Assembly: GCA_017533325.1 (NCBI GenBank) | Contig: JAFXIF010000015.1 | Coordinates: 1 to 38,914, forward strand | Length of the DNA: 38,914 nt | From: Alphaproteobacteria bacterium | GTDB lineage: Bacteria > Pseudomonadota > Alphaproteobacteria > CAAHEQ01 > UBA3637 | Direction of reading: 5' to 3' | In this document: piece after piece, positions 1 to 38,914 of the stretch | Numbering within the stretch: the stretch's first letter is position 1 | Layout: each line of letters starts with the position of its first letter | Program-made: the position numbers and the translations under genes | Notes under the pieces: model-generated | Seen by the model: only the letters and a program-made list of their open reading frames with translations | The model's database searches: none | What the model was told of the DNA's origin: nothing

Positions 1-1449
1 CTAAAAGAGCCTCTAAAACTTCTGCTTCAGCCGGAGTTAATCCCAAGTCTTTTTCAAGATCTTTCGACTCTTTTTTTCCAATCAAATAGGACCCGTCATT
101 TTGATCAATGATTTTAACCAATTTATTTTCTTTCAATTTCAAGTCATTATCCTTATTAAAGACTTGATAGACGCCTTCTTCCTGATTAAGTCCGTTTGTG
201 AGTTTTAGCTCAAGATGGGCCTTTTCATCACCTTCAACCGTGTCATGTCTTAAGGAGCCAAAATCAGACAAGTCATTCAATGTAACTTTAAGTGTTGAAT
301 CCTCCCCAAAAGTGATTATATCTGCCAAAACCTGTTTATTATTAATATCTAAACTGGTTCCTGGTTTTACCTCAATATCCTTAAAGGAAACAGTTTCTCC
401 CTCCCCTCCTAAATCCATATTATCGACAACAACTTTATTCGTAACAGTTAAATCTTCCGGCAATTGAAGCGTAGATTCGGTTAACATATAAGTTGCTCCG
501 GTTCCTTGCTCTGCCAACGCTTTATCAATCTCAACATTTGCATTTCTAAATGCAATAATATTACCGGATTCGTTATTCAATGCTTCTGTTACTTTAAATG
601 TTGTCCTCTTTCCTTCTTTCAATGTCGGCGTTGTGAAAAGTTTATCACTTGCAAGATAATAAATCAATTTATCATCAGCAGTATCTAAAGTCTCCTTATC
701 ATCTGTATAAGAAATAACTTTCCCATTTAAAAGAGCAATTTCAGCATCTTTTTCGGCTTTTGTATAAGAACCAAAACCAATAGTTGCACCCAGTCCTTCA
801 ATCATAAATTGAATACCACCTATTGTCGTCTTATTCACTTCCATCTCTTCTTTATTCGTGTAATGCACAGCTGAACCAACTGATACAATCTCACCATTGT
901 CACCAGGGAAAGCCCCAACAATCACAGAATGATTTATATCGCCCCCATGCGTTTTGAGTTCCCCACCTAAAACAGCATTAGAATCCATACCATTAAAGAA
1001 TACATCTGAGCTTGAAATCATGGTCCCATCGGTTTGCAAATAATAGCCTTGATAATTATCATTAACAGAATTATCACCCAAAATAACCGTTCCTTCTCCA
1101 GATTTTATAATCATTGGTTTTCTTGATGGATTATTTTCATCAATACTTCCGCTAATTCCTCCTTCAAACGATCCGACTGTTCCTTTTCCACCAGCTAAAT
1201 ACATCTCAACATCACCGGCTGAACCAGTTAATTGAGAAAAAGTGCTTAAATCAATATCATTCGGGGTTTCAATATCAGCAAGAATCGTTTTATTCGCCGC
1301 AAAAGTGAATCCATCATTAAAAGTCACAACATTTGGTTCAACTCCGGTCATTGATAATGAATCAACCGCCAACGCTCCCCCGTGTGCGATATAATTAGCT
1401 TTTGCTTCATTATTGATAAATTCAGCGTTGCCATTAAATATTGTTCGCC
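1..1449 (-). CDS. 3' continuation of the Pmp-like adhesin gene, in a shifted frame, running off the left edge
   Basis: The minus strand stays open from about 1441 to the window edge and continues the adhesin that starts at 6716, two frames later. Its translation contains the same features as the upstream part: FNGNAEFINN and HGGAL repeat units near 1360-1440, a third copy of the GTVILGDN module mark near 1080-1100, and a GGELKTHGG unit near 980. The short piece between about 1535 and 1443 is in a third frame (FEKNVLFKNN, then KDGGALGGAAFLTGEQ). Two single-base deletions, about 93 bases apart, would explain the break. The C-terminus, where an autotransporter beta-barrel would be expected, lies outside the window. 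It may be the disrupted tail of a pseudogene or the result of two sequence errors. Confidence 0.7.
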
Positions 1450-1451
1450 TG

Positions 1452-4400
1452 TTAAGAAAGCCGCACCACCCAAAGCTCCGCCATCTTTGCCAACTGCTTT
1501 ATTATTTTTAAATAACACATTTTTTTCAAATTCTGTATAGCTGAAAGACTCATTAAAGCGCCACCTGCACCGAGTGTTAACCCAATAGCTTCATTATTTT
1601 CAAACAAGGTATCTTTTTCAAAAGTAATTTTTGCGAAAATAATATTTCCCATATTATCCAATTTAGGCGGAGACGACATATTTACAACATCCGCAGTCGT
1701 ATTTACAAGAGCGCCACCATTTACCATATCGCCATAAACGCTATTTTGTTTAAATACGGCATTTCCTTTAAATGTGGTATCAACAACACTATTTATCATA
1801 GCTCCACCAACAGCAGATGTTCCCACCACAAATGGTGTTGAAGCTTTATTACCTTGGAAAAGAACATCTTTTTCAAAAATAAGGTCCCCAATAATAACGG
1901 AAGTTCCTACAGAATCGAATTCCGTGTATCCGAAATTATAAACCGCACCCGCGACAGAAAATGCATTACTTTCAACTTCATTTGAAACGAAATAAGCATT
2001 ATCTTTAAAGACAATATTCCCCTCATTATATAAAGCTCCTGAAACTCCCGGTGCCATGGTCTTGACTTTATTTTCAACAAAATAAGCTTCTTTATCAAAA
2101 GTTATATCTCCGACACGAATGATATTGTTATTAGCATCTTTATAAAAATAACCGATATTCTCAAGAACTTTACCAGACCACTCATTGTTAAATGATTGAA
2201 TTAAATTATTTTTAAATACTGTCGTATCTTTAAAATTAATTGTTCCTTCAATATTTGTAATTAATCCGGAAGATGAATCGGTTCCATATAATTCATTATT
2301 TGAAAAAGTTGCTTTTCCATCAAAATTCATAATTCCATTCATAGAAATTGAGCCATCGCTGTTGTAAATAATATCATTATAACCAAGCAAAGAAGCATTC
2401 TCAATCAATCCGGAGACAATTTGTGATGAAGCAATATTTTTATCAACTAAAACATCTTTTCCCAAATTTATGTTTCCACCCTCATTTTTTATAATTCCAC
2501 CAAAAATTCCCATATCGGCGGACAAAAGATTCTCTTGAAAAACAGTATTCCCGTCAAAATTAAGTTCGTTCGATACTAACACGTTCCCATTTTTATCAAA
2601 AAGTGGATTTCCTTGATCATCAGTCAATGGTCCTCCATAATTGTAAATAGCTCCATAAATTTGATCTTGTGTGCTTAACTTATTATTTTTAAATATAGCA
2701 TCCTCTTCAAACGTTAGCTTTGACTCATTATAAATAACTCCACCTTCCACAAGATCATAACCATTTTCCCCCTCATTATTTAAAAATTGTGTCTTTCCGT
2801 TAAAAACAATGTCTCCTTTGGTGATTAAATTACCATTTTCATCAGCAGAAACAACAACATAGTTATCAATCAAATAAGCTGACTGATTATTTTTAAAAAC
2901 AGTCTCATTTTCAAAAGAAAGTGTTCCACCTGAATTCTCAAAAGCAATCCCTTTTGTATTTTTAACCACAACATTATCAAAAATCGCTTTGTTATTTTCA
3001 CCTAAAATCCCCACAACAGTCGCATTATCAATGGTTAAATCTTGAACCGTTAAAGTGCCGCTTGTTTCATTCATTTGGAACAAATAATATCCATTAACAT
3101 GAATAATACTTTCCTCGGCATTTGTTGTTGCCCCTTTTATGAACTTCAAAGAATGAGCAACCTCTCCAATTTCACCCGTAATCGGCATGGTTGGATTTTC
3201 ATCTTTTGCATCAACTTGATAATGATAGATATCACCAATTTTTTCTCCGGAATTTTTCATATCAAAAATGGCATTACCTTTATACCTAACCGTTGTTCCA
3301 AGGTTATTTAATTCTGAATCCGGATATAAAACATAGATATGTTGCCCACCTTTATCAGCCTGCAAAACAACTTTAGACCCTGCAAAATCTGTTAATATGT
3401 ATTCATCTTCACCAAATGTTGCCTCGCCAAATAATGCTTGATATCCACTATCATCTTGCATCAAATCCAAATTTAATGTATTCAAGTTGAAAGTTGATTT
3501 TGTTGTCGAATTAATCGTGTCCCCATAATCCATATTTAAAACAGAATTGCTTGAAGTTAAATTTTCAAAATTAAGAGCATCAACTGTATCATTTAAAAGA
3601 TTAAAAGTGACCGTTTCATCTGTTTTATAATGACCATTATATGAAGATAAACCAAATTTCAATTCTGAATCTTTAAAAGAAATGCTATCAATTCCATCTT
3701 CATCTTGTAAAGCAACATCTTTAGTCAAAGAATACCTTGCTTTTTCAAGCGTATCTGTTGTTAAAAGCTTTTCGGTAACGTCATAATCCACATATTTTGC
3801 ATTTTTGATATTCTTATTAGTGGCATTTTCATAAACATAAATTTTTCTTGAAGCCATATCAACTTCATCTTGCTTTATTTTTGAAGTATAAGCTCCAAAA
3901 GTTAAACTTCCTCCCTTCATAATGATATCATTTGTTAAAGATACCTCTTGTTCATTTGGATTATTTGTCAAATATGTTAACAAACCGCCTTCCGAAACTG
4001 TAACCCTCAAATCAGCCAAACTATCAGAGTGAACACGAAGGTCCCCCCCTTTAAGCTCATGGGTTTTAGCAAAATTCAAAGATTGAGGATTGGTCACAAT
4101 AACACCATCAGTCAAACTAAATTGAGATGTATAATTAAGTCGATCATAATCTGGATCATCATCATGGAAAAAATTAAGCTGAGACGTTGGATTTTCAAAA
4201 TATCCATTATCCATATTATCGCCTAAAATTAAGGTTCCTTTTCCGCTTTTAAGGATAATCCCGCCATCATTAAATATACCAGCATCAAGTGTACCAACAG
4301 ATCCTTCTTCTAAATCAAAATGAAGAGTGCCAACGCGATTATAAATATCATCACCAGCCCCAATACTCATAGACTGATTATCACTAAAAATAAAACTTTT

Positions 4401-6716
4401 TTTAAAGGTTGTTGTTCCTGTATGAGTAAAAAGCCCTCCTCCCAAATCAAATATATCACAATAAATTGAGTTATCAATAATAGAGACATCAGCATCAAAA
4501 ACAATATTGCCCCCATTAAATAGCGCACCTCCAAAAGCATTATATGACCCCCAATGACTTCCAACAACACTGAAAGATCCTGTAAGATTTAAATTTGCCA
4601 TATTAGATAACGCACTAGATGCTTGATAAGAATTTGTAAAAATAACATTATCCAAATGAAAATTTGCCATTTGAGGAAGCGAAGTCGTATTTTTTAAAAC
4701 AGCTATATAAGAAGTATTTAACCCTATATTTTTTAACTCAAGAGACATGCTCTTTTGATCAAAAGAAATTGATGCGCCAAAAAGAAGGTTCTCTCGTGGA
4801 TCTGCCGTCGCACCAATAATTTTTTTAAATCCAGGCGCTAAACTTTCATATTGATAGCTATTGTCATCTCGATATCCATAAACACCATCAATTAAAGTCC
4901 CATTCTTTTTCAAATCAAAAACCAAGTTCCCTTCTGTTTCTATAAATTCTTTCAGTGTATTCGCATCAGTATAAGAAATACTACCTTGAACATTAACTTC
5001 TTGACCGCCTTTTTCAACTGAAAGATATAAGCCTTTATAATAACCATCCATTTCAAATGTTTTTGACTCAAGGAATGTTGCACCCCCCATTAATGCTTGA
5101 TAAGAAACAATATTTTCCGAAACTATATTTTTACTCGGCATAATACTTTTTAAATCAAAAATAACATCTGTTAATTGTGTATCAATAACGTCTGCATACT
5201 CTATTGATAAAGGAAGATTCATCGCGTTCAAATTCGAAAATGTTATATTATCCGTAAATTGATTAACGGTTGTTATGGTATTTGATGTATCTAAATTATA
5301 TACCCCCGAATATGTAATTGTTCCTCCGCCAAAAGAAACATCTCCGTTTTTAAATACAACCTCAGCACCTTCTTTTGCAATATCTGAGTGAACCAAATAA
5401 TTCGTTCTTGTTTCTTCAGCAACCGAATCCATTGTAAAAAGCGTATTTATTGAATTTTCTGCAACATAATTCTTAATGTAATTTTGTTTAATATCATCAG
5501 TATAAACATCAAAATAAGCTTTGGAATACTCATTCATTTTAACACCAGACAAATCCGTCGTTCCTCCGGCACTATAATGTTTCCAAATCATCATATTATT
5601 TTCATCAGCTCCAGTAAATGAAGCCGAAAATGGTATGTTTGACCCGTGTGTTTCTAAAATACCACCTGTAAAAATATTTTGTTCGGCAAGAGTGAAATTA
5701 TCACTTTTGGCAACAGTAAGACCTGCTGTCTGATTAAATGAGCCATCCCCCTCATTTAACATATTATCACCCAAAATAAGCGTTCCTGAATTATTTTTAT
5801 TAATTATACCTCTATTATCAATACCCCCATCTAACGATCCAACGAGCGGTCTATTTTCTTCAGTTCCATGAGAAAAGTTTATTGTGGCATCATAAACATT
5901 TAAAATATCCACCCCTGATTTATTCTCATCTAATACTGTTTGAACAACATTTTCCGCAAAAAGAAAATCTTTATTAAAAGTTATTTGATCTGTATTATAA
6001 ATCGCACCGCCTCCCGCATAGTAATATTGATGATTATATCTTGGAGAACTTAATGCTGTATTTCCTTTAAAAACAGCTGAACCATTGAATATAATGTCTT
6101 TATCATTATAAATCGCTCCACCATAAGCAGACATATACTGACCTGATTTAGCCATGTTTCCAATAAAACTAGCATCTTTATTAAATTGAATTGTTCCAGA
6201 GTTATAAATTGCTCCACCAAAATTATTCCCTGAAGCCCCATCATGGATCGACAAATTATCTTTAAACATTACATCAACATCAAATAAAACAGAACTTGAA
6301 AAATTAGTTACAGTTGATCCATACATATAATTTGTATAAGATGTTGGAGTTAATGTATTATTTGAAAATAAAAGTAAGGGATTTGTCGTTGTATCAGAAT
6401 TTTGAAAATGAAGTTTCGCGCCATCTCTTACTTGAAAAACCGCTGTATTAGCTGTTGTATCAAGATTTTTATAAATCAAATTTTTACCCGCTAAATCTAT
6501 TTTTGTATCACTTAAAATTTTACTTCCATCAGAAGAGCTTAAATCATTTTCAATGTTATTCAAATTTTCTGAAGGGACCAATATATTAGCGGTTGCTGAT
6601 GATTCAATTGATAAAATAAAAGAAAATGCCATCAAATTTGCAAGGAAGCATTTTTTTAAAATGTTCAAATATCTTTTTTTAAGTTCACGCAAAGCGGTTC
6701 TTGAATAATATGACAT
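1452..6716 (-). CDS. Giant Pmp-like surface adhesin / autotransporter passenger (frameshifted at its 3' end)
   Basis: The 1754 codons begin at an ATG six bases after a strong AAGGAGG ribosome site. A long basic N-terminus and a hydrophobic segment (about residues 23-36) end in an ATA signal-peptidase-like site near residue 43, like the extended signals of autotransporters. The body is rich in GGAI/GGAL units followed by FxxN units (FIGN, FKGN, FKNN, FQEN, FVEN), the paired signature of chlamydial polymorphic membrane proteins. Larger modules also repeat: TLILGDNM occurs at about residues 312 and 828, each followed by a GG-x-L-x-x-H stretch and a YQAL(M/F)G-x-ATF segment. An exported beta-helical adhesin is inferred. 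The last ~30 residues (from LKKMCYLK) are out of frame with the repeat pattern, so the true product continues in other frames to the left edge. It is transcribed from the promoter in the repeat block upstream. Confidence 0.85.
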   Translation of the reverse strand: MSYYSRTALRELKKRYLNILKKCFLANLMAFSFILSIESSATANILVPSENLNNIENDLSSSDGSKILSDTKIDLAGKNLIYKNLDTTANTAVFQVRDGAKLHFQNSDTTTNPLLLFSNNTLTPTSYTNYMYGSTVTNFSSSVLFDVDVMFKDNLSIHDGASGNNFGGAIYNSGTIQFNKDASFIGNMAKSGQYMSAYGGAIYNDKDIIFNGSAVFKGNTALSSPRYNHQYYYAGGGAIYNTDQITFNKDFLFAENVVQTVLDENKSGVDILNVYDATINFSHGTEENRPLVGSLDGGIDNRGIINKNNSGTLILGDNMLNEGDGSFNQTAGLTVAKSDNFTLAEQNIFTGGILETHGSNIPFSASFTGADENNMMIWKHYSAGGTTDLSGVKMNEYSKAYFDVYTDDIKQNYIKNYVAENSINTLFTMDSVAEETRTNYLVHSDIAKEGAEVVFKNGDVSFGGGTITYSGVYNLDTSNTITTVNQFTDNITFSNLNAMNLPLSIEYADVIDTQLTDVIFDLKSIMPSKNIVSENIVSYQALMGGATFLESKTFEMDGYYKGLYLSVEKGGQEVNVQGSISYTDANTLKEFIETEGNLVFDLKKNGTLIDGVYGYRDDNSYQYESLAPGFKKIIGATADPRENLLFGASISFDQKSMSLELKNIGLNTSYIAVLKNTTSLPQMANFHLDNVIFTNSYQASSALSNMANLNLTGSFSVVGSHWGSYNAFGGALFNGGNIVFDADVSIIDNSIYCDIFDLGGGLFTHTGTTTFKKSFIFSDNQSMSIGAGDDIYNRVGTLHFDLEEGSVGTLDAGIFNDGGIILKSGKGTLILGDNMDNGYFENPTSQLNFFHDDDPDYDRLNYTSQFSLTDGVIVTNPQSLNFAKTHELKGGDLRVHSDSLADLRVTVSEGGLLTYLTNNPNEQEVSLTNDIIMKGGSLTFGAYTSKIKQDEVDMASRKIYVYENATNKNIKNAKYVDYDVTEKLLTTDTLEKARYSLTKDVALQDEDGIDSISFKDSELKFGLSSYNGHYKTDETVTFNLLNDTVDALNFENLTSSNSVLNMDYGDTINSTTKSTFNLNTLNLDLMQDDSGYQALFGEATFGEDEYILTDFAGSKVVLQADKGGQHIYVLYPDSELNNLGTTVRYKGNAIFDMKNSGEKIGDIYHYQVDAKDENPTMPITGEIGEVAHSLKFIKGATTNAEESIIHVNGYYLFQMNETSGTLTVQDLTIDNATVVGILGENNKAIFDNVVVKNTKGIAFENSGGTLSFENETVFKNNQSAYLIDNYVVVSADENGNLITKGDIVFNGKTQFLNNEGENGYDLVEGGVIYNESKLTFEEDAIFKNNKLSTQDQIYGAIYNYGGPLTDDQGNPLFDKNGNVLVSNELNFDGNTVFQENLLSADMGIFGGIIKNEGGNINLGKDVLVDKNIASSQIVSGLIENASLLGYNDIIYNSDGSISMNGIMNFDGKATFSNNELYGTDSSSGLITNIEGTINFKDTTVFKNNLIQSFNNEWSGKVLENIGYFYKDANNNIIRVGDITFDKEAYFVENKVKTMAPGVSGALYNEGNIVFKDNAYFVSNEVESNAFSVAGAVYNFGYTEFDSVGTSVIIGDLIFEKDVLFQGNKASTPFVVGTSAVGGAMINSVVDTTFKGNAVFKQNSVYGDMVNGGALVNTTADVVNMSSPPKLDNMGNIIFAKITFEKDTLFENNEAIGLTLGAGGALMSLSAIQNLKKMCYLKIIKQLAKMAELWVVRLS

Positions 6717-6779: not shown

Positions 6780-6836
6780 TTTAAAGTGAAAAAATATGCC
6801 TGATTTTTAAGCAATATTTTCCACCCCCATACTTTT

Positions 6837-6867
6837 ATTATACCATGGGTTTAAATTTTCGTGTCCC
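6837..6867 (-). promoter_or_regulatory. Predicted promoter of the adhesin gene (ON orientation)
   Basis: On the minus strand there is a perfect -10 box TATAAT (6842-6837) with a -35-like GGGACA (6867-6862), 19 bases apart, and an A/T-rich stretch further upstream. Transcription would start near 6830 and give a leader of about 115 bases into the adhesin ATG at 6716. The same boxes are conserved in the second copy (38582-38612), where the -35 is TGGACA. The 19-base spacer is longer than ideal. Confidence 0.6.
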
Positions 6868-7065
6868 AAATTTTTCAAAAAAAATTGATGATTTTTTGAT
6901 ATTTTCTTTTAGTTTATTGATTTTAAATGATTATTTTTTATTAAAAAATTGAATAAAAATGAATAAAAAGATGAAATTTTATGTTTTTGTTTCAAAAAAA
7001 AACCGGTCAAAAATCAAAAAAAAAGAACCTGTTTTAATGCGTCATTTTTGAGCCAAAAAGCCGGC

Positions 7066-7087
7066 AAATCTAACGACCGTTAAATTT
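7066..7087. repeat. Palindromic site at the distal end of repeat copy 1
   Basis: The arms AAATCTAACG and CGTTAAATTT flank AC, with one mismatch between the arms. Positions 7072-7090 match the 19 bp inverted repeat of the right-hand element at 18 of 19 positions. It has the look of a tyrosine-recombinase core site (two arms around a short centre), but it could also be a regulator-binding site or a MITE end. Confidence 0.6.
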
Positions 7088-7131
7088 CCGATCTATAAAA
7101 TTAAAATAACATATCGATTTTTTAAATCGAG

Positions 7132-34813: not shown

Positions 34814-36772
34814 TTAAAAAAAGCTATATGGATTAATATCAATTCTTAAACTGACATTAGACGGAATGATAACTTTATTCATCCAAGCCGTTAAAATATT
34901 TTGCATTTTCACCTCTTTTTGTGCCTTGATGAGCAACCGGTATCTAAATTTTCCACGAAGTAGCGCAATCGGAGCAGGTGTCGGCCCTAAAACATCAAAT
35001 CCATCTAAAAATGGCGCCATGGAAACAATTTTCTTCGCCGTATCCACAACTGCCTGTTCATTTTTTCCGCTTAAAATCATGGCGGCTAATTGACCAAATG
35101 GCGGCATTTGCAACATTTCTCTTGTCATGATTTCTTGTTCCATAAAAGTTTGCCTGTCATTATTTTGAAGCGATTGGATCACCAAATTTTCGGGCACATA
35201 CGTTTGCAAAACAGCCGTTCCTTTTTTTTGTTCACGCCCGGCTCTTCCCGTTACCTGATGAAGCAATTGAAAAGTGCGCTCCCCTGCCCTTAAATCTCCG
35301 CCGGAAAGCCCCATGTCCGCATCAATCACGCCCACCAAAGTTAAATTGGAAAAGTGATGCCCTTTTGCTAAAATTTGTGTCCCGATTAAAATATCAATTT
35401 CATTGTTCTTAATTTTTTCAAGTAAAACAGCAAACTCTTTCGGATTATTTAATGTATCTGAAGTCACCATACATAATCTGGCTGAAGGAAATAAACTTGA
35501 AGCTTCTTCATGAATGCGCTCAACACCCGGCCCACAAGCAACAAGCGTTTCTTCTTGCCCACATGTCGGACATTCTTTCGGAATTCTTCTGATATAACCG
35601 CAATGATGGCATTGAAGAATATTTCTTTTTTTATGTTCCACCAAAAAGGCGGCACAATGCGGGCATTTAATCCTCTCTCCACACGCTCTACATAGCATTA
35701 ACGGTGCATAACCGCGTCTGTTTAAAAATAAAAGTGTTTGCTCTTTTTTTTGAATATTTTCGGCAATTAAATTTTTAAGGTCTTCCGAAATAAAGCGAAC
35801 CGGCCCTTTTTCTTTTTGCCTCATATCAACCAACCTGATATCCGGCAAAACAGCTCCTGAAAAACGTTCTTTTAATTCGATATGATAATATTTGCCTTGT
35901 AATACATTACAATAAGTTTCAATACTTGGCGTTGCAGAGGCTAACAAAATAGGGCAATTTGCAATTTTTGCTCTGACAACCGCCATATCGCGCGCTTGAT
36001 AAAGAACGCCGTCTTCTTGTTTAAAAGATTGATCATGCTCTTCATCCACAATAATTAAATCCAATTTTTTATACGGCAAAAATAAAGCCGATCGCGCCCC
36101 GACAATAACCCTTGCCTCGCCTTTTAAAATAGCTTGCCATGTGTCTCTTCGTTGCTTTTGGGTAACTCCTGAATGCCATAAAGCCGGTTTAACACCAAAT
36201 CTTTTTTCAAACCGATCCAGCCAAGCTGTTGTCAATGTAATTTCCGGCAATAAAACAAGCGTTTGCCCCCCTTGTTCAATAGCTCTTGCAATCGCTTCAA
36301 AATAAACTTCCGTTTTTCCGGAACCTGTTACACCGTCTAATAAAGAAACGGCAAAGCCATTTGAAATTTGATCTGTGATTTGCTCAACAGCCGCTAATTG
36401 GCTATCTGAAAAAGAAAGCGTTTTATGCTTGGGATTCGGGATGGGAAAATTAAGTTTTTTTTTGCTTTCCTTTTCAAAATCGGTTAAAAGTGCCATTTTT
36501 AAAACAGCCCCTAAAGGCGCTAACGTATAGGCACTGACCCAATTAACAAATTGAATCGTTTCCAAAGGAAGTACTTGATAAGGAAGAACTTCTAATATCT
36601 CTTTAATTTTGCTTTTATCCAAATGAGTATTCGGAGCTTTATCCCACACAACACCCATCATTTTTTTTCGGCCAAACGGCGCAATCACAAACGTGCCAAC
36701 AGGCAAGTCTGTTGAACTCAAATAATCATAACACCCCAGCGGTGTTGGAAAAAGAACAGATATCTGTTGCAT
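34814..36772 (-). CDS. priA: Primosomal replication restart helicase PriA
   Basis: The 652-residue SF2 helicase reloads the replisome at stalled forks. The Walker A motif is GVTGSGKTE (residues 148-156) and the DEEH box is at 243-246, followed by QSFKQEDGVLYQARDMAVVRA. A zinc-binding array (CRACG, CPHCA, CHHCG, CPTCG; about residues 360-410) is intact. The C-terminal helicase motifs include GTQILAKGHHFSNLTLVGVIDAD and QVTGRAGREQKKG. It is shorter than E. coli PriA (732), with a compact N-terminal 3'BD. Confidence 0.96.
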   Translation of the reverse strand: MQQISVLFPTPLGCYDYLSSTDLPVGTFVIAPFGRKKMMGVVWDKAPNTHLDKSKIKEILEVLPYQVLPLETIQFVNWVSAYTLAPLGAVLKMALLTDFEKESKKKLNFPIPNPKHKTLSFSDSQLAAVEQITDQISNGFAVSLLDGVTGSGKTEVYFEAIARAIEQGGQTLVLLPEITLTTAWLDRFEKRFGVKPALWHSGVTQKQRRDTWQAILKGEARVIVGARSALFLPYKKLDLIIVDEEHDQSFKQEDGVLYQARDMAVVRAKIANCPILLASATPSIETYCNVLQGKYYHIELKERFSGAVLPDIRLVDMRQKEKGPVRFISEDLKNLIAENIQKKEQTLLFLNRRGYAPLMLCRACGERIKCPHCAAFLVEHKKRNILQCHHCGYIRRIPKECPTCGQEETLVACGPGVERIHEEASSLFPSARLCMVTSDTLNNPKEFAVLLEKIKNNEIDILIGTQILAKGHHFSNLTLVGVIDADMGLSGGDLRAGERTFQLLHQVTGRAGREQKKGTAVLQTYVPENLVIQSLQNNDRQTFMEQEIMTREMLQMPPFGQLAAMILSGKNEQAVVDTAKKIVSMAPFLDGFDVLGPTPAPIALLRGKFRYRLLIKAQKEVKMQNILTAWMNKVIIPSNVSLRIDINPYSFF

Positions 36773-36828
36773 TTTTTTTGAAACCTTATATACTTTTCTT
36801 TAAGCTCAAGGACAGGATACAAAAAAAC

Positions 36829-37782
36829 ATGGAAGAATACAAGCCACTTTCTTATACAACAAGTAAAAAACTTAAAAAGATTATTTTAGATTGGCAACGA
36901 TTTTTGTTATCCGAAAGGCGACTCGCTGACAAAACGGGGGAATCTTATTTAAGAGATTTAAAAGAATTTTTTCATTTTTTCAGCGAATATAATGAAAAGG
37001 TGGCAGATGTTACCGATTTAAAAAATATGACTGTTTCGGATTTCAGAGCTTTTTTAGTTTGGCGCAGTGATCACAGTATTTCAAGATCCAGTATTGCAAG
37101 AGGGATGTCAACCTTAAGAAATTTCTTTAAATTTTGCACTCGAGAATGCCTTTTTGAAAATACAGCCGTGATGTCAATTCATACCGGAAGAAAACCAAAA
37201 GTTTTGCCAAAACCGCTTTCTGTTGATGATGCCTTTTTATTTTTAAAAGCAGTTAAAGATGTTGCCAAAGATTCGTTTCAAGAAAAAAGAGACACCGCGC
37301 TTTATATGCTTCTTTACGGGTGCGGTTTAAGAATTAATGAAGCCTTGCAACTCAACAGAATGGATGTGCCGTTGGATAAAGATGCTTTTGTAATTTTAGG
37401 AAAAGGAAACAAGGAACGATTAATTCCATTACTTCCCATGGTGAAAAATGCCATTGCCGATTATTTGGAATTATTGCCAACCAAAAACCCAAATATCCCC
37501 CTTTTCATCGGCGCAAGAGGAGAACGCTTAAATGCAGGCGTTGTTCAAAGAAACGTTCGCTTTATCAGAAAATATTTAGGGCTTGCCGACTCTGTGACTC
37601 CTCACGCATTAAGGCATAGTTTTGCAACTCATCTTTTGCAAGGTGGAGGAGATTTAAGAACGGTTCAAGAATTGTTAGGCCATGCCTCATTAGCGGCCAC
37701 TCAACTTTACACAGAAATTGATAAAGCGCATTTATTGAATGTATATGATAAAGCACACCCTCGCGCTCACTTAAAAAAATAA
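36829..37782 (+). CDS. xerC: Tyrosine recombinase XerC-type
   Basis: The tyrosine recombinase of 317 residues (from the ATG at 36829) resolves chromosome dimers with XerD at dif. Catalytic residues are present: R168 in GCGLRINEAL, K192 in GKGNKERLIP, H259 and R262 in HALRHSFATHLL, H285 in LGHASL, and nucleophile Y294 in TQLYTEI. An in-frame ATG at 36712 would overlap priA and is not preferred. It lies about 750 bases from the putative invertible element at 38530-38834 and is the only recombinase in the window. It reads as a housekeeping XerC, but a role in inversion is possible. Confidence 0.92.
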   Translation: MEEYKPLSYTTSKKLKKIILDWQRFLLSERRLADKTGESYLRDLKEFFHFFSEYNEKVADVTDLKNMTVSDFRAFLVWRSDHSISRSSIARGMSTLRNFFKFCTRECLFENTAVMSIHTGRKPKVLPKPLSVDDAFLFLKAVKDVAKDSFQEKRDTALYMLLYGCGLRINEALQLNRMDVPLDKDAFVILGKGNKERLIPLLPMVKNAIADYLELLPTKNPNIPLFIGARGERLNAGVVQRNVRFIRKYLGLADSVTPHALRHSFATHLLQGGGDLRTVQELLGHASLAATQLYTEIDKAHLLNVYDKAHPRAHLKK

Positions 37783-38478: not shown

Positions 38479-38520
38479 AACCGACTTTAAACTCTTTGTT
38501 TTCAGTCGGTTTTCTTATTT
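38479..38520 (+). terminator. Terminator after the small gene pair
   Basis: The 8-base stem AACCGACT (38479-38486) / AGTCGGTT (38504-38511) with a 17-base loop is followed by TTCTTATTTTTTTT. It separates the small genes from the invertible element just to the right. It would also face transcription from the promoter at 38582-38612 when that reads leftward. Confidence 0.75.
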
Positions 38521-38529
38521 TTTTTAGGT

Positions 38530-38548
38530 CGGAAATCTAACGGTCGTT
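38530..38548. repeat. Left 19 bp inverted repeat of the putative invertible element
   Basis: CGGAAATCTAACGGTCGTT is a perfect inverted match of 38816-38834. The sequence beyond it differs from the other end. Confidence 0.85.
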
Positions 38549-38581
38549 TTTTGTTCCGAACTTTTTCCTTTCCATACTTTT

Positions 38582-38612
38582 ATTATACCATGGGTTTGAA
38601 TTTTCGTGTCCA
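38582..38612 (-). promoter_or_regulatory. Predicted promoter inside the element, pointing left (OFF)
   Basis: On the minus strand TGGACA (38612-38607), a 19-base spacer, and TATAAT (38587-38582) match the left-hand adhesin promoter. In this orientation it would transcribe toward the terminator at 38479-38520 and not toward the gene at 38910. Confidence 0.6.
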
Positions 38613-38815
38613 AAATTTTTCAAAAAAAATTATTTGTTTTTTAATATTTTCTTTTAGCTCGTTGATTTTTAAGAATTATTTTTTATCAAAAATTTGCATA
38701 AAAATTGATAAAAATATGAAATTTTATGTTTTTTGTTACAAAAAAACCGGTCAAAAATCAGCAAAAAATAACCTGTTTTAAGGCGTCATTTTTATGCCAA
38801 AATGCCGGCAAATCT

Positions 38816-38834
38816 AACGACCGTTAGATTTCCG
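38816..38834. repeat. Right 19 bp inverted repeat of the putative invertible element
   Basis: AACGACCGTTAGATTTCCG is the exact reverse complement of 38530-38548. It overlaps a palindrome (38810-38831) with perfect 10-base arms around AC. The whole site can be read as 11-base arms around a 6-base centre, the layout of a tyrosine-recombinase core site. Confidence 0.85.
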
Positions 38835-38852
38835 GGCTTTTACTTTTCCGCC

Positions 38853-38909
38853 ACAATTAACAAAAGGAAAAACCATGTAAACATTTTTTTATTTTAAAGG
38901 AGGCATCCC
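38853..38909 (+). promoter_or_regulatory. Conserved adhesin-type 5' leader (copy 2) with a start-stop mini-ORF
   Basis: It begins ACAATTAACAAAAGGAAA, has ATG (38875-38877) directly followed by TAA (38878-38880), and ends in AAAGGAGGCATCCC before ATG at 38910. It is the counterpart of 6717-6779 and lies outside the inverted repeats. Confidence 0.7.
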
Positions 38910-38914
38910 ATGAC
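38910..38914 (+). CDS. Start of a gene cut by the right edge; probably a second Pmp-like adhesin
   Basis: Only ATG and two more bases are in the window. The perfect AAAGGAGG site and the leader shared with the left-hand adhesin predict a related surface protein. Its identity cannot be read from this sequence. Confidence 0.4.

Follow-up and report, generated by a model that had tools for sequence, protein, structure and literature searches.

In the hix and gix sites of the Hin/Gin-type serine invertases, two palindromic arms flank a central pair of bases, and Hin and Gin each serve one local switch with an enhancer. In chlamydiae, the expression of the Pmp proteins is variable; promoter inversion is not a known mode of Pmp gene variation. 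For a single master invertase that flips promoters throughout a genome, the capsules of Bacteroidales are the best-known example. In B. fragilis, a single serine recombinase, Mpi, inverts 13 regions, 7 of them capsular polysaccharide promoters (PMC4747536), and the consensus of the repeats is ARACGTTCGTN (PMC8375218). A further precedent, this time for autotransporters, is ipuS of uropathogenic E. coli, an invertible promoter that controls the adhesin UpaE (PMC6083910).

The window analysed here, a stretch of 38,914 nucleotides, is contig C65 of its source genome (G000; 1.44 Mb in 73 contigs). Below, G024 stands for the sister species, G021 for another genome of the family, and C-numbers for contigs. 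The source, a small-genome gut alphaproteobacterium, carries, with good probability, a dispersed promoter-inversion system for surface autotransporters. As in Hin/Gin systems, palindromic arms surround a two-base centre, and one recombinase encoded in the genome (on C24) aligns to solved DNA invertases; unlike the single local switch of Hin or Gin, the switches are dispersed. With the chlamydial Pmp family the system shares autotransporters carrying the Pmp repeat. The likeness to B. fragilis Mpi lies in many dispersed promoters with one common inverted repeat and with surface products (PMC4747536), and in the presence of a gene for an Mpi-family serine recombinase; both repeats have ACG-NN-CGT in common, with GT as the centre here and TT in B. 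fragilis (PMC8375218). On the other hand, the host is alphaproteobacterial, the targets are autotransporters and not capsules, the arms are longer, the promoter is of the extended -10 and not of the Bacteroides type, and several Mpi homologues are present, some of them behind switches of their own. The arrangement of a putatively invertible promoter ahead of an autotransporter gene recalls ipuS/UpaE (PMC6083910); that system, however, is a single locus on which tyrosine recombinases act, two of them from adjacent genes, whereas the present one has many loci, and serine recombinases whose genes lie elsewhere. A search mainly of the openly accessible literature, outside which lay the main 2019 inverton survey (cited in PMC11868660), returned no report of inverted autotransporter promoters in Alphaproteobacteria.

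Anatomy of the Element

The sequence-only reading of this DNA had described perfect 19-bp inverted repeats (38530-38548 and 38816-38834) bounding a segment of 305 bp, and they lie exactly there (Table 1). A perfect 19-bp inverted repeat with a spacing of 40-400 bp occurs once in the window and in none of 60 Markov-simulated windows. Each repeat is a portion of a longer recombination site: the right-hand, gene-proximal site is a near-perfect palindrome, and its outer arm is identical in the left-hand site, the inner arm of which is degenerate. The six-base centre CGGTCG, reported before to be the same in both repeats, is indeed identical in this element.

The -10 box was also correctly placed as directed away from the gene at 38910, since ATTATA on the plus strand at 38582-38587 is TATAAT on the minus strand, where it forms an extended -10 (TGG-TATAAT). 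The -35 that had been claimed is present but weak, as it fails a strict sigma-70 scan. Strict scanning of the element region for promoters and terminators found nothing. Across the copies of the element, the -10 block, the stretch immediately following it and the sites are nevertheless the best-conserved portions. The promoter is predicted to be active. The terminator-like hairpin recognized by eye sits where transcription in the OFF state would run. Just 5 nt of the gene lie inside the window, and its identity comes from the untranslated region, the ribosome-binding site and the start, which match those of paralogs. After inversion, the -10 box would stand 127 nt from the ATG, compared with 125 nt at the ON copy on C16 and 120 nt at the 6827-7090 element; the distances of 128 and 121 given earlier equal 127 and 120 by a different way of counting.

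Table 1. Coordinates of the features discussed, in the window unless a locus and contig are named.
Feature	Position	Strand	Basis
Autotransporter-family gene behind the 6827 element, with Pmp-like repeats	1452-6716	-	
Paralogous element, ON orientation; gene-proximal site missing, distal site kept at about 7066-7090	6827-7090	-	
XerC-type tyrosine recombinase adjoining priA	36712-37782	+	Best match XerC, below curated cut-off
Hairpin resembling a terminator, AACCGACT...AGTCGGTT, then a T-rich run	38479-38511	.	By eye; loop exceeds scanner limit
Putative invertible promoter element, 305 bp, assembled OFF	38530-38834	-	Sequence inspection, genome-wide copy search
Promoter-end (distal) recombination site, CGGAAATCTAACG-GT-CGTT, with GT centre (38543-38544) and degenerate inner arm	38530-38548	+	
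Extended (TG-type) -10 box TATAAT, directed leftward and thus away from the gene	38582-38587	-	
Weak -35-like TGGACA, conserved among copies; spacing to the -10, 19 bp	38607-38612	-	
Palindromic-end (gene-proximal) recombination site, AAATCTAACG-AC-CGTTAGATTTCCG, with AC centre (38820-38821)	38810-38834	-	
Conserved 5' untranslated region; ribosome-binding site AAAGGAGG at 38896-38903	38835-38909	+	Common to paralogous loci
Autotransporter-family gene start (ATGAC...), cut by the contig end	38910-38914	+	Comparison with C45, C35, C73, C42
Mpi-family recombinase gene; 120-bp segment upstream bounded by AAAACGGTCGTTTTAG-type inverted sites	L073 1312-2150 (G000:C70)		
Mpi-family recombinase gene after a 61-bp perfect inverted repeat including its own ribosome-binding region, at contig start	L186 1-251 (G000:C66)		
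Serine-recombinase homologue without catalytic region, with its own small inverted-site pair	L075 1165-1953 (G000:C34); L110 6310-7065 (G024:C63)		

Copies Across the Genome and Their Genes

About 17 copies of the element were recovered from the genome with the element itself as query, and exact paired cores at the correct spacing were found for 11 copies (none for a reversed control pattern). In each of the 12 copies with an assembled gene side, the unit ends some 75-110 bp before the start of a member of one gene family, in most cases with a shared untranslated leader that contains a strong ribosome-binding site; where enough of the gene is present, the encoded N-terminus is M-T-N-Y-S-R-T-T-L-R-E-L-K-K-R-Y-L-N or close to it. 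The proteins, putative adhesins, carry Pmp-like repeats (Chlam_PMP domains) and, where complete, a C-terminal autotransporter barrel. This barrel (PF03797) was found at C12, C63 and C16, and the whole genome has 15 barrel matches, some of them without a visible switch. The distal neighbours of the switches are mostly ordinary genes (e.g., accA, a chaperonin, transporters), and each switch-plus-autotransporter unit therefore occupies an unrelated place in the chromosome. At four loci of G000 (L060, L061, L065 and L067, on C42, C43, C60 and C68), the OFF promoter faces the start of another gene, such as those for a MarC-type membrane protein or a CoA transferase, and these switches might drive either neighbour.

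The block at 6827-7090 had been described as a paralog directed into its own gene. The direction stands, and what had been overlooked is that its gene-proximal recombination site is absent. The same is true of the copy on C63; both are ON and, having lost that site, look locked in this state, which for 6827-7090 is probably the case. This locked state, the family of about 17 copies and the Mpi-family recombinases all go beyond the earlier description. The gene at 1452-6716 has a reading frame broken near 1.5 kb, and homologous sequence goes on in another frame to the contig edge (window 1-1500). The gene behind the ON copy on C16 likewise has a frame break, in the barrel. Such breaks may be real changes, slippage-type variation or assembly errors.

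Recombination Sites and Candidate Recombinases

The consensus of the sites is AAATCTAACG-GT-CGTTAGATTT, with perfect 10-bp arms around an invariant GT; the positions beside the GT vary between sites, even between both sites of the C34 element. Since the symmetry extends up to the central GT, and the GT is invariant despite changes in its neighbours, the sites fit a serine invertase exchanging two bases, and they resemble serine-invertase sites. Three intact Mpi-family serine recombinases are encoded in the genome (C24, C70 and C66 types), together with one degenerate homologue (C34). The C24 recombinase scores 287 against a curated Mpi-family cut-off of 272 and, in its alignment with the solved invertases, keeps the Y-x-R-V-S catalytic motif. 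Among 43 genomes of the family, paired sites are present in three only (G000, G024 and G021), and the closest orthologs of the C24 protein are those of G024 (85%) and G021 (71%), all other family genomes having at most 64% identity; the orthologs of the three genomes form one well-supported clade. In an exact-pattern scan of named genomes, the sister genome, that of isolate RGIG9879 from yak rectum, was the only match apart from one unrelated hit that looks like chance. The co-occurrence of C24 orthologs and paired sites in related species points to the C24-type homologue as the candidate catalyst, and it could also reflect mere species closeness.

We consider it likely that the elements form an Mpi-type multi-promoter inversion system for autotransporters. 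An Mpi-family serine recombinase would act in trans on all the dispersed units; it would pair the two inverted sites, cut at the central GT and invert the 305-bp segment. In the ON state, the predicted extended -10 promoter would face the autotransporter gene about 125 bp away. In the OFF state, seen at 38530-38834, it would face the distal flank, where a terminator-like hairpin is often present. Given about 15 switchable loci, of which most are OFF, and two that look locked ON, the set of Pmp-like autotransporters on the surface would differ from cell to cell.

Against the assignment to a single enzyme stand two other Mpi homologues, as well as XerC and XerD, in the same genome. Inversion by another member of the Mpi family (C70 or C66 type), or on sites common to several members, is the most serious competitor, though an unlikely one: the C70-type gene has inverted sites of its own with the same core, AACGGTCGTT, and an ortholog in G024, but the outer arms of its switch are unlike those of the autotransporter sites, and G021 has paired sites but no Mpi homologue that belongs to the C70 group.

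Decidedly improbable is an inversion of the promoters by host XerC/XerD, with the repeats serving as dif-like sites (11-bp arms around the six-base centre CGGTCG). The palindromic site does admit an 11-6-11 reading, in which the inner ends are TAA-N6-TTA, the XerC gene is 750 bp from the element, and XerC and XerD are the only two tyrosine recombinases found in the genome (XerC in the window, XerD on C24). However, each of the five relatives checked has XerC, whereas most of them have no paired sites, so that its presence does not track the switches; the symmetry of the sites reaches the central two bases; and TTA is missing from the promoter-end inner arm in most copies. Moreover, the six-base centre, identical at 38530-38834, differs between the partners of the C34 element (TGGTCG vs. 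GGGTCG), which the strand exchange of a tyrosine recombinase should not tolerate. The gene at 36712-37782 was itself considered as a dedicated invertase and rejected: being next to priA and present in the five relatives, it is a housekeeping XerC. No dedicated tyrosine recombinase was found beside the switch.

Orientation States and Signs of Inversion

The assemblies point to DNA inversion at the elements. Thirteen of the switchable copies are OFF, one (C16, with both sites intact) is ON, and one, at a contig end (C12), has junctions of both orientations. The OFF group comprises nine fully assembled copies (38530-38834 and eight others) and four copies cut by contig ends, in which the promoter end is joined to the distal flank. 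The first 29 bases of C12 match positions 335-363 exactly in reverse complement, and one distal flank is attached to both element ends; this would require both junctions among the assembled reads, but the 29-base duplication may also have arisen as an artefact of assembly. Contig C66 begins with the same picture for another switch, and its 61-bp repeat is likely a trace of mixed orientations in the assembly.

A comparison with relatives for the flipped state, suggested by the sequence-only reading, found it at an orthologous locus that is OFF in G000 (C15) and ON in G024 (C20): the flanks agree in 62 of 64 bases through the core and then run into opposite element ends, and the break in homology coincides exactly with the core of the site. 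The small switch ahead of the C34 gene also has opposite orientations in G000 (OFF) and G024 (ON), in surroundings that are not syntenic. A second candidate pair of OFF and ON orthologs (G000:C68 and G024:C5) was discarded, as the shared block is wrongly oriented relative to the elements. At the XerC locus of G024 (L177, on C8), the autotransporter gene runs in the direction opposite to that expected from the window, a hint of rearrangements on a larger scale between the switch loci. Taken together, the copies in two orientations, the OFF/ON ortholog pair and the contig with both orientations support the phase-variable invertible promoter that had been proposed ahead of a Pmp-like adhesin gene.

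The same evidence bears on whether the repeats are relics, left by loci duplicated long ago in two orientations and now fixed, which we regard as very improbable. Two loci do look locked ON and some genes have broken frames, including the one behind the ON copy on C16; nevertheless, most copies keep both repeats perfect or almost perfect, whereas the interior of the element drifts to about 84-93% identity; both orientations seem to be recorded in one sample at C12; and the state of the orthologous locus differs between species. That the 305-bp unit is a MITE or another mobile element with terminal repeats is hardly credible and was rejected, for in spite of its many dispersed copies with terminal inverted repeats, the 12 copies with an assembled gene side all lie just upstream of a single gene family, no target duplication was seen, the between-species difference in orientation at one locus has its breakpoint inside the repeat core, and two copies without one end still keep the promoter.

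Possible Switches on the Recombinase Genes

Mpi-family genes themselves are found behind inverted repeats. The sites upstream of the C70-type gene have the core of the autotransporter sites and different outer arms, and the inverted repeat of the C66-type gene differs in sequence from the other switches. The C70 gene adjoins genes for ankyrin-like repeat proteins (by eye). This organization suggests that the supply of recombinase is phase-variable. A layered switch, in which the apparently intact C70 recombinase and the catalytically dead C34 homologue both stand behind small invertible promoters with the same or a similar core and form a self-modulating network of surface variation, is offered only as a tentative idea; in such a network, the C34 relative could compete for sites, and the supply of recombinase would itself switch at random. 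Several matches to Mpi-family recombinases were obtained in each of nine same-genus genomes searched, and upstream inverted repeats of other sequence accompany some Mpi-family genes of the same genus, so that further promoter-inversion regulons across the genus are likely.

Biological Significance

Promoter inversion would explain the poor assembly of such genomes at the switch loci. Through promoter flipping, the organism probably changes its cell surface at random. Applied to a whole autotransporter family in small-genome gut Alphaproteobacteria, the logic described for the capsules of Bacteroidales suggests convergent or exchanged systems of surface variation among unrelated gut bacteria.
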